A stretch of DNA of 64,000 nucleotides from Lactobacillus paragasseri. Lineage in GTDB: Bacteria > Bacillota > Bacilli > Lactobacillales > Lactobacillaceae. A model generated the notes under the pieces. It worked only from the letters and a program-made list of their open reading frames with translations, did not search any database and was not told the origin of the DNA. The stretch spans positions 1,612,001 to 1,676,000 of the forward strand of contig NZ_AP018549.1 of assembly GCF_003584685.1 (NCBI RefSeq). The letters are read 5' to 3'. Below, one piece after another: positions 51,538 to 54,420 of this stretch. Numbering within the stretch: the first letter of the stretch is position 1; each line of letters opens with the position of its first letter. A program made the translations under genes and the position numbers.

Positions 51538-52275
51538 TTAATATTCTGAAGCGCCAGAATTGGTATCAGGTTTTGCTTCTTTCTTTTCTTCTACATGCTC
51601 TTCATGTTTAGAAGCGCCTGTTGCAGTATCAATGGTATCTCTCTTATAAGTTGCACCAGTTGTAGCATCGGGATCATCAACAAGTTTTTGTCCAGTAGTT
51701 TCACAGAAATATTTTACAAACGGATATATATCTTGTACCCATTCATAAGTACCAACATAGTTACCCTCTTCGTCTTCAATTCGCTTATAATCATGTAAAA
51801 TCAACTTATGACGATTACCATTTGGAACAGGCATTTTAACTTCATCATGTCCACCGACTTTATTTCTTAAAGCATAGATAACTTTCTTTGCTTCAGGAAT
51901 AACGTTACGAATATCAGGGTGAACAGCACCCATAGTATCACCAACTTGATCTGGTGTACGACCAGCAAGCATCTTTTTATCTGGATCAGTTGGCTTGTTA
52001 TACCACAAGAATTGGTTGTTATCATCTACATAAGTTAATTCACCAAATGCACGACGAAGCATCCAGTTAATTTGGTTAACTGTAAGAAGTCCAGCATCAA
52101 GCTTTACGTAGTCGTCACCTTCAGCAGCATTTACTTTCTTGGCTGCCTTATCCAACCAGTCAGGATCATTTTTATCTACACCTTCAACAGTATAGCGTGA
52201 CTTTCCGGTTGCATCGAAATCTTCTTTAAGATAATCTTCTTCTTTTAAATCTTTTAGCCACTTAGGTTCTGCCAT
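51538..52275 (-). CDS. PAS-domain protein (DUF438-like PAS), larger paralogue
   Basis: The 245-residue soluble protein has an acidic N-terminus (about 1-50). A PAS domain follows (about 75-195, with ELTYVDDNNQFLWYNKP, GRTPDQVGDTMGAVHP and KLILHDYKRIEDEEGNYVGTYEWVQDIYP), then a conserved ETTGQKLVDDP segment and an acidic tail ending SGASEY. The protein encoded at 37080-37616 is a shorter relative with the same segments and end. There is no DNA-binding or enzymatic output domain. AGGTGAAG precedes the ATG. The function is unknown. It is divergent from the cysteine-leader/transporter unit. Confidence 0.7.
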   Translation of the reverse strand: MAEPKWLKDLKEEDYLKEDFDATGKSRYTVEGVDKNDPDWLDKAAKKVNAAEGDDYVKLDAGLLTVNQINWMLRRAFGELTYVDDNNQFLWYNKPTDPDKKMLAGRTPDQVGDTMGAVHPDIRNVIPEAKKVIYALRNKVGGHDEVKMPVPNGNRHKLILHDYKRIEDEEGNYVGTYEWVQDIYPFVKYFCETTGQKLVDDPDATTGATYKRDTIDTATGASKHEEHVEEKKEAKPDTNSGASEY

Positions 52276-52420: not shown

Positions 52421-52449
52421 TTGACTAAAAGTAAGTTATAAGATATCAT
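52421..52449 (+). promoter_or_regulatory. Promoter of the cysteine-leader/transporter unit
   Basis: TTGACT -35 (52421-52426), a 17-base spacer and TATCAT -10 (52444-52449). Transcription would begin near 52456, about 27 bases before the leader-peptide ATG. Confidence 0.7.
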
Positions 52450-52482
52450 AACTTGTGAAAAGTAAGAAAGGAGCTAATGATT

Positions 52483-52587
52483 ATGTTTAATGTACGTCAA
52501 GCAAATTCTTGTTGTTGTAATTGTCAAAAAAATTGGCAATTATTTGGCGTACAGTCATTAGTTCACTTCAGGAATTTCTCTAGTTAG
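52483..52587 (+). CDS. Cysteine-rich leader peptide (34 residues)
   Basis: This short frame was too small for standard calling. AAAGGAG (52467-52473) lies 9 bases before the ATG. Residues 9-14 read S-C-C-C-N-C, using TGT TGT TGT AAT TGT (52510-52524). The frame ends with TAG at 52585. The RNA 5' of the cysteine codons (TGTACGTCAA, 52491-52500) can pair with TTGGCGTACA (52544-52553), so a ribosome stalled at the codons would break this stem. A terminator lies 38 bases after the stop and the next gene is a cystine-type transporter. The layout is that of a transcription attenuator sensing charged tRNA-Cys. Confidence 0.75.
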   Translation: MFNVRQANSCCCNCQKNWQLFGVQSLVHFRNFSS

Positions 52588-52625
52588 AAACTAGCTTTTC
52601 AAAGTTATAACTATGATTTTTCTCA

Positions 52626-52659
52626 AGAGCTGTTGGCACTAGGCCAATGGCTCTTTTTT
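52626..52659 (+). terminator. Intrinsic terminator of the attenuator
   Basis: AGAGCTGTTGGC (52626-52637), loop ACTAG, GCCAATGGCTCT (52643-52654): a 12-pair stem with two G-U pairs, followed by TTTTT. It lies between the leader peptide and the transporter start. Confidence 0.88.
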
Positions 52660-52686
52660 GTTTGCTTAGAATCGGGGTTGAATAAA

Positions 52687-54075
52687 GTGCAAACTACTCT
52701 CATTGTTTTAGTAGCCGTCGCTATTCTAGCTGGCATGGCTTACTTACATAAAAAGAATTGGGGATTTACCAAGCTAGTATTTCTCTCATTAGTCGTTGGA
52801 ATCGTCTTTGGAGTTTCTATTCAATTAATGTTTGGTGCCAAAAACGAGATTGTAAAAAATAGTATTGATTGGATTTCAATTGTTGGAGATGGGTATGTCT
52901 CCTTATTACAAATGTTGGTTATCCCACTAATCTTTGTTTCATTAGTTGGTGCCTTTACGCAATTAAAAATGACTACTAAAATCCGAAAAATTGCTACAAG
53001 TGTCTTAGCCATCTTGCTAGGAACTACTGCAGTTGCTTCATTCCTGGGCTTTAGTAGTGTTGCAATTTTTAATTTAGGCGGAGCTGGCTTTGCTAAGGGA
53101 ATGACTGCTTCTTCAACTGCTCTTAGTGCAATTAAGGACCATCAAGAACAATTGAAAGGCCTAACTTTACCGCAACAAATTACTTCGTTTTTCCCGCAAA
53201 ATATTTTTGCCGACTTTGCAGGAATGCGTTCAACTAGTACAATTGCAGTTGTAGTTTTCTCTATCTTTGTCGGAATTGCATTCTTACAAATTAAGAAAGA
53301 AAAAGCTGAAGTCGCTGCTACCTTTGCACGTGGTATTCAAGCATTACGTGCAGTTATCATGCGGATAGTTAAAATTGTACTCGAACTCACTCCATACGGA
53401 ATCTTTGCTCTAATTGCTAGAACTACTGCAACTAACAGTTTCGCAACAATGAGCAAATTATTGGTCTTCATCGTTGCCGCTTATGTTGCAATAATAGTTA
53501 TGTTTATTGTTCACGCTGTTTTACTTTTAATTAATGGAATTAATCCTATTACTTACTTTAAGAAGGCGTGGCCAGTTTTAGTTTTTGCCTTCACTTCCAG
53601 AACTAGTGGTGGTAGTTTGCCACTTAATGTTCGTACCCAACGTGAATCAATGGGCGTTAGCGACACAATTGCCGATTTCGCCGCTAGCTTTGGTTTAACT
53701 ATTGGTCAAAATGGATGTGCAGGTATTTACCCATCGATGGTTGCAGCAATTACTGCTCCCCTTGTTGGAGTTAATATTTTCTCATGGCAATTTGTCTTAA
53801 CCTTAGTTGTAATTGATGTTATTTCAAGTTTCGGCGTTGCCGGTGTTGGTGGCGGTGCAACATTTACTACTTTAATGGTACTTGGAGCACTTAACCTGCC
53901 AGTTACAGTACTTGGAGTTTTAATTGCTATTGACCCAATCGTTGACATGGCAAGAACTGCTCTTAATGTTAATGATTCGATGGTCGCTGGTGTAATTACT
54001 GCTAAGCGTACTGGTGAATTAGATTGGAATATCTTTAATAATCAAAAAGATGATGTAGATACTGAAATTGAATAA
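52687..54075 (+). CDS. Dicarboxylate/amino acid:cation symporter family, L-cystine transporter-like (TcyP type)
   Basis: This 462-residue membrane symporter has about eight helices and two re-entrant loops. TSRTSGGSLPLNVRTQ is the first hairpin-loop region. NGCAGIYPSMVAA and the later VGGGATFTTLMVLGALNLP / DPIVDMARTALNV are typical of TcyP/YdjN cystine transporters. I start at the GTG at 52687 behind GGGGT. The frame is open upstream to a TTG at 52633, but that lies inside the terminator stem and would lack a usable site. The cysteine-coded attenuator upstream supports a sulfur amino acid as substrate. A T-box unit for methionine genes follows. Confidence 0.85.
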   Translation: MQTTLIVLVAVAILAGMAYLHKKNWGFTKLVFLSLVVGIVFGVSIQLMFGAKNEIVKNSIDWISIVGDGYVSLLQMLVIPLIFVSLVGAFTQLKMTTKIRKIATSVLAILLGTTAVASFLGFSSVAIFNLGGAGFAKGMTASSTALSAIKDHQEQLKGLTLPQQITSFFPQNIFADFAGMRSTSTIAVVVFSIFVGIAFLQIKKEKAEVAATFARGIQALRAVIMRIVKIVLELTPYGIFALIARTTATNSFATMSKLLVFIVAAYVAIIVMFIVHAVLLLINGINPITYFKKAWPVLVFAFTSRTSGGSLPLNVRTQRESMGVSDTIADFAASFGLTIGQNGCAGIYPSMVAAITAPLVGVNIFSWQFVLTLVVIDVISSFGVAGVGGGATFTTLMVLGALNLPVTVLGVLIAIDPIVDMARTALNVNDSMVAGVITAKRTGELDWNIFNNQKDDVDTEIE

Positions 54076-54134: not shown

Positions 54135-54420
54135 AATTAAAGCTTAGAAAAGATGAGTAAGTACTTAATGCATCTCACAGAGAGTCGGAACAGGTGTAAG
54201 CCGATGTTGCTAGAGTGAAGAAGATGGTCTTGGAGCTAAATTAAAATGCGAGCTATTTAAAGTAAGCAATTTACGATTGACGTACGTTATCACGTCTGAG
54301 TCTTCCATATTTTGGAGTACTTATTAAGGAACTGATTGTGAAATCGGTTTGAATATAGGGTGGTAACACGGTATTAAGCGTCCCTAGTGTAGTGTAATAG
54401 CTATACTAAGGACGCTTTTT
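54135..54420 (+). promoter_or_regulatory. T-box leader, probably methionine-specific
   Basis: The leader has a stem-I AGAGAG-type element near 54180, a candidate specifier loop GAAGATGGTC with ATG (about 54221-54230), the T-box GGGTGGTAACACGG (54358-54371) and a terminator hairpin AAGCGTCC ... GGACGCTTTTT (about 54375-54419). The Met specifier is a reading by position and agrees with the MetE-like gene downstream. Uncharged tRNA-Met would favour read-through. Confidence 0.85.

Follow-up and report, generated by a model that had tools for sequence, protein, structure and literature searches.

A 64,000-nucleotide (nt) window of the Lactobacillus paragasseri genome, i.e., the whole stretch of DNA analyzed here (assembly GCF_003584685.1, contig NZ_AP018549.1, positions 1,612,001-1,676,000 of the forward strand), carries a gene for a tcyP-like L-cystine transporter preceded by a short leader open reading frame (ORF) with a run of cysteine (Cys) codons and by an intrinsic terminator. 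Coordinates below refer to this window, and features are on the plus strand unless stated otherwise. The transporter gene (52687..54075) encodes 462 residues of the SDF family (Pfam PF00375). Its start had been assigned to the GTG at 52687, an assignment that is backed by an ATG at the equivalent position in two relatives. The protein shares 43% identity with Escherichia coli TcyP over 450 residues, as against 22-27% with GltP, DctA, and SstT in the stretches that align. It is hence closer to TcyP, in keeping with the cystine-type transporter of the initial annotation, and several of its relatives in named records are annotated as L-cystine transporters. Because no NCBIfam model scores over its cut-off for the protein, cystine is a substrate that we infer. 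With respect to cysteine synthesis, searches of this genome for cysK/M and cysE gave weak matches and none over the cut-off (cut-offs that 3 and 6 of 14 control genomes, respectively, likewise fail to reach), and no match to the cysK2 type was found at an E-value of 1e-80. The strain is thus likely a cysteine auxotroph for which import matters.

The leader ORF (52483..52587; 34 codons, from the ATG at 52483 to the TAG stop at 52585-52587) encodes MFNVRQANSCCCNCQKNWQLFGVQSLVHFRNFSS*. Its Shine-Dalgarno (SD) sequence, AAAGGAG (52467..52473), is identical across 11 of 11 aligned sequences and ends 9 nt 5′ of the start codon; the leader is thus not leaderless. The putative sensor codons Cys-Cys-Cys-Asn-Cys (TGT TGT TGT AAT TGT; 52510..52524) place cysteine at 52510, 52513, 52516, and 52522, the first three being 27-33 nt from the leader start codon. 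A distance of 27 nt corresponds to approximately one ribosome length. Upstream of the leader, a promoter-like site of the sigma-70 type (TTGACT-17 nt-TATCAT; 52421..52449) agrees with the consensus at 10 of 12 positions, and its TTGACT is invariant in six aligned sequences. Five such sites were found in the region relative to 4.3 expected by consensus matching, such that the promoter match, taken alone, is weak. Downstream, the terminator (52625..52659) is composed of a 13-pair stem (52625-52655; −19.6 kcal/mol) and a T run; one terminator was found in the region compared with 0.6 expected. Hence, the SD-led leader with its Cys run, the promoter (as a consensus match only), and the terminator, given earlier as 52626-52659, are all recovered. 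An SD-led leader ORF, a run of Cys codons before a TcyP homolog, and an intrinsic terminator are the hallmarks of attenuators of the trp/his/leu class, and all of them are present in the sequence. Among 41 window ORFs of at least 150 codons, only the transporter has such a Cys leader upstream.

Is the leader conserved in the genus? A transporter search of 75 genomes gave 15 matches at an E-value of 1e-30, and removal of three GltP-like proteins (27-28% identity) left 12 orthologs. Every one of these 12 genes is preceded by a Cys-run leader, and the loss of Cys codons or reading frame in close relatives, which the initial annotation had named as evidence against attenuation, was not seen within the genus. 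A CCCNC leader is present in nine sequences (the window and eight relatives with 94-97% protein identity, among them L. johnsonii ATCC 33200 and L. taiwanensis DSM 21401) and in two others at ~80% identity, and the ortholog at 58% identity has an unrelated leader, MKMCCCIMSK*. In the 11 alignable sequences, the Cys codons vary solely between TGT and TGC. The leader start and CCCNCQ are retained, and insertions or deletions 3′ of the Cys codons shift the reading frame in four close relatives. Since both the C-terminal frameshifts and the unrelated leader retain the Cys codons, selection appears to keep the codons and not the peptide, as expected of a codon sensor rather than a functional peptide. 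Six leader peptides compared with NCBIfam, and five with Pfam, gave zero matches. A search of genome contigs with the transporter returned five loci, all in close relatives, and a search of the family with the leader-peptide sequence (E-value up to 1) returned matches in 131 of 397 genomes, mostly at chance level outside the close relatives.

The same arrangement extends to other genera. In 397 genomes of the Lactobacillaceae, tcyP was identified in 35 at an E-value of 1e-60, giving 38 genomes together with the genus search. According to a fixed rule (an SD, an ORF of 6-60 codons, at least three Cys in five codons, and a location at most 450 nt upstream), 20 of the 38 tcyP genes have a Cys leader, while shuffled sequences average 0.15 and the next amino acid, lysine, reaches 3. 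A terminator lies 3′ of all 20 strict leaders vs 4 after one shuffle. The leader peptides are strongly different between genera. In two genera (L063, L091, and L092), the interval from the terminator to tcyP also contains, as read by eye, another small ORF of the MVNKRLVKLLGKHRGGQTC* type.

T-boxes are also found in front of this importer. Five tcyP genes (L080, L083, L086, L087, and L101) have an upstream T-box, one scoring over the Rfam gathering threshold and four under it (E-value ≤1e-9), and in 13 scanned loci with a Cys leader no T-box was detected in front of tcyP. The three T-boxes that were aligned in full (L086, L087, and L101) have GAAGAUG at the specifier and UGGU in the bulge of the antiterminator, and we read these two features as marks of the methionine (Met) type. 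Because some Lactobacillaceae tcyP genes carry a T-box instead, the importer has apparently switched between two sensing systems, the Cys leader and the T-box. The initial annotation named no described case in lactobacilli and gave T-boxes as the norm; T-boxes do precede tcyP in some sister genera, but Cys leaders are common in Lactobacillales (see below). The window has a T-box of its own downstream of the transporter (54136-54388), before a metE-like gene (54592) and luxS (55722). Its score of 84.4 bits is below the Rfam gathering score of 93, and it is hence missed by a default scan; from the metE-like gene and the UGGU bulge we infer Met specificity.

Cys-run leaders are not confined to the importer. 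According to the available excerpts of PMC6004538, the cysteine-making operon cysK2-ctl1-cysE2 of L. paracasei FAM18149 is more highly expressed in cysteine-deficient medium, its 5′ untranslated region (5′-UTR) has high coverage and a terminator region of the form AAGGGCGCGAAA-N16-TTTCGCGCCCTT, and a 2012 study by Liu and others is cited for a palindrome upstream of such genes; there, the control mechanism is stated to be as yet undiscovered. We compared the leader in strains other than FAM18149 itself, namely on plasmids of L. rhamnosus Lc 705 and L. paracasei CBA3611. In both, the operon 5′-UTR encodes MMSQSMFNAINCCCRTTRFWRCSAC*, a CCC leader behind a strong SD, and the exact AAGGGCGCGAAA-N16-TTTCGCGCCCTT motif lies directly 3′ of it. 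The leader and terminator are slightly different in two further operon records. Comparable leaders were detected in L. casei ATCC 393, Limosilactobacillus fermentum DR9, and Enterococcus faecalis, where the Cys leader (L290:2274-2411) is annotated as the hypothetical protein WP_002355203.1.

A cysK2 protein search of the 397 family genomes gave matches in 107, at 108 places, of which 105 were fetched, the partial matches in G320, G368, and G425 being left out. A strict Cys leader precedes 74 of these 105 cysK2-type genes, in 12 of 15 genera (shuffles, 0.3; next amino acid, 13). Among the 31 misses, which include one locus with 113 nt of upstream sequence (L209), 30 have, on inspection by eye and without the SD rule, a short ORF in which two or three Cys codons are adjacent. 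In the order, 73 of 395 genomes match cysK2; 13 of these are Lactobacillaceae already seen, and the other 60 were all examined. By the same rule, 42 of the 60 genes from other families have a strict leader (shuffles, 0.35; next amino acid, 4), a number that increases to 47 with a looser SD rule, under which 55 have at least CC. For Lactobacillales, the total is 116 of 165 cysK2-type genes with a Cys-run leader, distributed over six families by automatic family labels; many of the leaders come from related genomes, and the counts do not represent independent events. A terminator lies 3′ of 74 of 74 and 42 of 42 strict leaders vs 11 and 4, respectively, after one shuffle each. One cysK2-type gene from Priestia has no Cys leader. 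Many cysK2 leaders (L110-L214) also share an R..R spacing after the Cys run, as in CCCRTTRFWRCSAC, CCCGSRLMRPT, and CCSTTRFRCCTAC, which may reflect a constraint on the peptide or the RNA. Of the 35 tcyP genomes drawn from the family, 18 carry Cys codons in the leader of tcyP (17 by the strict rule, and G101); none of these 18 has the cysK2 type, vs 7 of the 17 others (Fisher p 0.003, uncorrected for relatedness). In genomes that lack the biosynthetic operon, the Cys leader therefore tends to be found before the importer.

For the leader RNA (52456-52662), the folding energy is −65.9 kcal/mol, compared with −39.9 kcal/mol for shuffles (standard deviation 3.9; z −6.7). In the minimum-energy fold, a long stem brackets the Cys codons by pairing 52491-52499 with 52545-52553, nearly as drawn in the initial annotation (52491-52500 with 52544-52553), and is extended by pairing of 52471-52481 with 52554-52564. 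Its 5′ arm (region 1; 52471..52499) runs from the SD into the leader and pairs with its 3′ arm (region 2; 52545..52564); the GAG of the SD is within region 1, and stem 1:2 thus takes in the leader's own SD. An inner hairpin (52517..52543), seen in the minimum-energy fold and in the alignment pair counts, overlaps the last Cys codons, and the hairpin predicted earlier at the leader stop is also present in this fold. The 5′ arm of the terminator (region 3; 52627..52637) can pair at 10 of 11 positions with 52554-52564 of region 2, which would constitute an alternative, antiterminator pairing 2:3.

Both states were compared with the alignment of the 11 sequences. For the terminated-state structure, 95.8% of the cells are paired (92.8% in helix 1 and 100% in helix 2), compared with at most 51.2% in slid versions. 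The terminator (helix 5) contains two pairs that are changed on both sides, the only such pairs in this structure. Column shuffles match the paired percentage in 48 of 500 cases and the double changes in 18 of 500, which is modest support. For the 2:3 pairing (52554-52564 with 52627-52637), 99.1% of the cells are paired vs at most 57.3% in slid versions, and 5 of 500 shuffles do as well; one pair is changed on both sides, from G-C to A-U, in both distant relatives.

Taken together, these data suggest that the leader very probably regulates transcription by ribosome-mediated attenuation in response to charged tRNA-Cys, and that elements of the same class, with unrelated leader peptides, are positioned before tcyP in several other genera and before operons of the cysK2-ctl1-cysE2 type across Lactobacillales. 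As judged from the sequence comparisons, the attenuator class, as first proposed, is well supported by the 12 of 12 orthologs and the order-wide leaders, while the exact antiterminator, which relies on modeling, is less certain.

A number of observations weigh against this reading, with respect to both its breadth and its mechanism. First, 18 of the 38 tcyP genes have no leader by the fixed rule: one (L090 in G101) has Cys codons that fail the rule, five have the T-box, two are cut by contig ends (L082 and L085, with 257 and 75 nt upstream), all of these being counted as misses, and ten have neither. In the genus g26, all six tcyP genes lack a strict Cys leader as well as a T-box match, and tcyP genes outside the Lactobacillaceae (two Enterococcus records and one Cytobacillus record) have no Cys leader. 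Second, covariation is thin because stems 1:2 and 2:3 are largely invariant in the 11 sequences. Of the compensatory changes looked for, two pairs in the terminator and one in 2:3 are changed on both sides, and none in 1:2. Third, in the window sequence alone the 2:3 pairing is not above shuffles, either in a test of 16 chosen leaders with the terminator arms marked by eye (p 0.19) or in a test with the arms chosen automatically (p 0.15). Across the leaders, the automatic 2:3 test reaches p≤0.05 in 3 of 20 tcyP leaders, 16 of 42 from other families, and 4 of 74 Lactobacillaceae cysK2 leaders, and the distant relatives G067 and G018 fail the shuffle test for SD masking (p 0.49 and 0.44). Finally, when the transcript as far as the terminator loop is folded at equilibrium, with assumed ribosome footprints, a lone ribosome at any of the four Cys codons gives an antiterminator probability of ~0, since the SD arm, lying 5′ of the ribosome, stays free and pairs with region 2.

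The last result bears on how the attenuator would work. In the same folds, stem 1:2 forms in the free RNA (mean pairing 0.92) and region 3 is not paired with region 2. When region 1 including the SD is masked, the antiterminator probability is 0.86 before the terminator 3′ arm is made, and it drops to 0 when a ribosome is placed over region 2. The folds do not support a simple four-region model in which a single ribosome stalls, given that the SD arm still captures region 2. The original proposal that stalling at the Cys codons prevents terminator formation would therefore need simultaneous masking of the SD. Because a lone stall is insufficient, masking of the SD gives 0.86, and the Cys codons are positioned 27 nt from the start, a queue of two ribosomes is favored as the stalled state. 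In this model, with ample cysteine the ribosome would pass the Cys codons and cover region 2, such that the terminator (3:4) forms and tcyP is off. When charged tRNA-Cys is scarce, ribosomes would stall at the Cys codons, and the stalled ribosome and the next one on the SD would jointly mask region 1. Region 2 would then be free to pair with the terminator 5′ arm, and transcription would enter tcyP. In the absence of any ribosome, 1:2 and the terminator would form, with the SD hidden.

How general are these features? Pairing of the SD region with RNA 3′ of the Cys codons exceeds that in shuffles (p≤0.05) for 12 of the 20 tcyP leaders, 9 of these 12 being near-identical leaders of the species group of the window, for 27 of 42 leaders from other families, and for 21 of 74 Lactobacillaceae cysK2 leaders. 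SD masking thus appears to be more general than the 2:3 pairing, yet not universal. A general 2:3 antiterminator for all leaders finds no support in the Lactobacillaceae cysK2 leaders (4 of 74). For nine leader types, a combined Fisher value for 2:3 (p ~2e-5, with the more favorable member used for most two-sequence types) is no more than suggestive.

Could such a leader respond to something other than cysteine supply? A general slowing of translation, oxidation, or antibiotics might act through the same architecture, given that attenuators responding to ribosome inhibitors are known and that Cys codons are rare (0.57% of the residues in 42 window ORFs), such that any slowing might act there. 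This alternative is unlikely, since it is Cys runs, and runs of no other amino acid, that recur before genes that take up cystine or make cysteine, and since one such operon is reported to be repressed by cysteine (PMC6004538, as excerpted), both of which point to cysteine. It is slightly less probable still that the ORF is a small gene with its own terminator, encoding a functional Cys-rich peptide (e.g., metal- or redox-binding), with tcyP as a mere neighbor. A short ORF with an SD, a promoter, and a terminator would be seen in this case as well, but in four close relatives the reading frame of the C-terminal part differs, leaders before orthologous genes in different genera have little in common except the Cys run, and the unit recurs before two kinds of cysteine genes and is absent before the other 40 large window ORFs; on these grounds the functional peptide was rejected. 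Control of the terminator without translation, by a tRNA- or metabolite-binding RNA or by a protein with the AAAAGTAAG repeat as its operator, is the least credible of the three and highly improbable even though a T-box precedes tcyP in sister genera and the repeat is also seen in relatives, since a T-box or other Rfam element at 52421-52690 is rejected by an Rfam scan that gave no family beyond one chance-level match (E 0.17) and no match to the T-box covariance model (RF00230), and the Cys codons would lack any role.

With respect to the upstream region, the AAAAGTAAG direct repeat (52427-52435 and 52458-52466, 31 nt apart) flanks the −10 hexamer, and there are just two copies in the 64-kb window when both strands are counted. 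An AAGTTAT-N8-ATAACTT sequence spans the −10 hexamer too. The repeat around −10 is possibly a candidate operator. A divergent 245-codon ORF on the minus strand (51538-52275), for which no NCBIfam match was found, shares the intergenic region.

Attenuators with Cys codons are already known from mycobacteria and other actinobacteria and from Rhodobacterales. As described in the excerpts of PMC8632094, the uORFC-8-2 motif of Rhodobacterales has a Cys-codon upstream ORF (uORF) and an intrinsic terminator before cysS. Like the leader in the window, it has tandem Cys codons in a uORF within a stem followed by an intrinsic terminator, and sensing of charged tRNA-Cys has been proposed. It differs in that it is one conserved motif, found in Alphaproteobacteria and associated with cysS, whereas the Lactobacillales leaders precede transporter genes and biosynthesis operons, vary between genera, and have their own SD in a competing stem. 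Polycysteine leader ORFs in mycobacteria are reported by Canestrari et al. 2020 as cited in PMC13236596, and PMC1262725 describes Cys leaders before cys/cbs operons of actinobacteria, one example being cbs of Bifidobacterium longum. These share Cys-codon runs in a short ORF before cysteine genes. However, the mycobacterial ORFs are leaderless by the title of that study, in contrast to the SD-led leader in the window, and the actinobacterial cys/cbs leaders are, in the excerpts of PMC1262725, without a conserved terminator hairpin, in contrast to the intrinsic terminator here.

Leader-peptide attenuation in Gram-positive bacteria, with predicted terminator and antiterminator, is also represented by the histidine attenuators of the Bacillus cereus group, Peptostreptococcaceae, and others [PMC9413887, PMC2965389; excerpts]. 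There the amino acid is histidine, and the histidine genes of Lactobacillales are reported in these excerpts to be under T-boxes. Likewise, in the excerpts of PMC6004538 methionine genes and transporters of lactobacilli are predicted to be under T-boxes. These Met/Cys T-boxes are similar to the element in the window in pathway, in the logic of uncharged tRNA, and in having cystine/cysteine transporters as targets, but the RNA binds the tRNA directly, without translation. Among the literature matches listed, from a search that mostly did not extend to subscription papers, none describes a Cys leader in Lactobacillales.

The chances are about even that the leaders form an order-wide leader-peptide cysteine regulon used instead of T-boxes, residing on the cysteine operon where that is present and otherwise on the importer, with the SD folded in for many of them and a two-ribosome queue as the sensor. 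If true, this would constitute a missing layer of sulfur control in Lactobacillales. It would explain the cysteine repression of cysK2-ctl1-cysE2 by a mechanism that can be tested, and the palindrome cited upstream of cysK2-type genes would be the terminator of an attenuator. Moreover, the leaders would provide an example of leader peptides in which the sensor codons persist through turnover of the remaining sequence, and cysteine-responsive switches would be on offer for food and gut bacteria.

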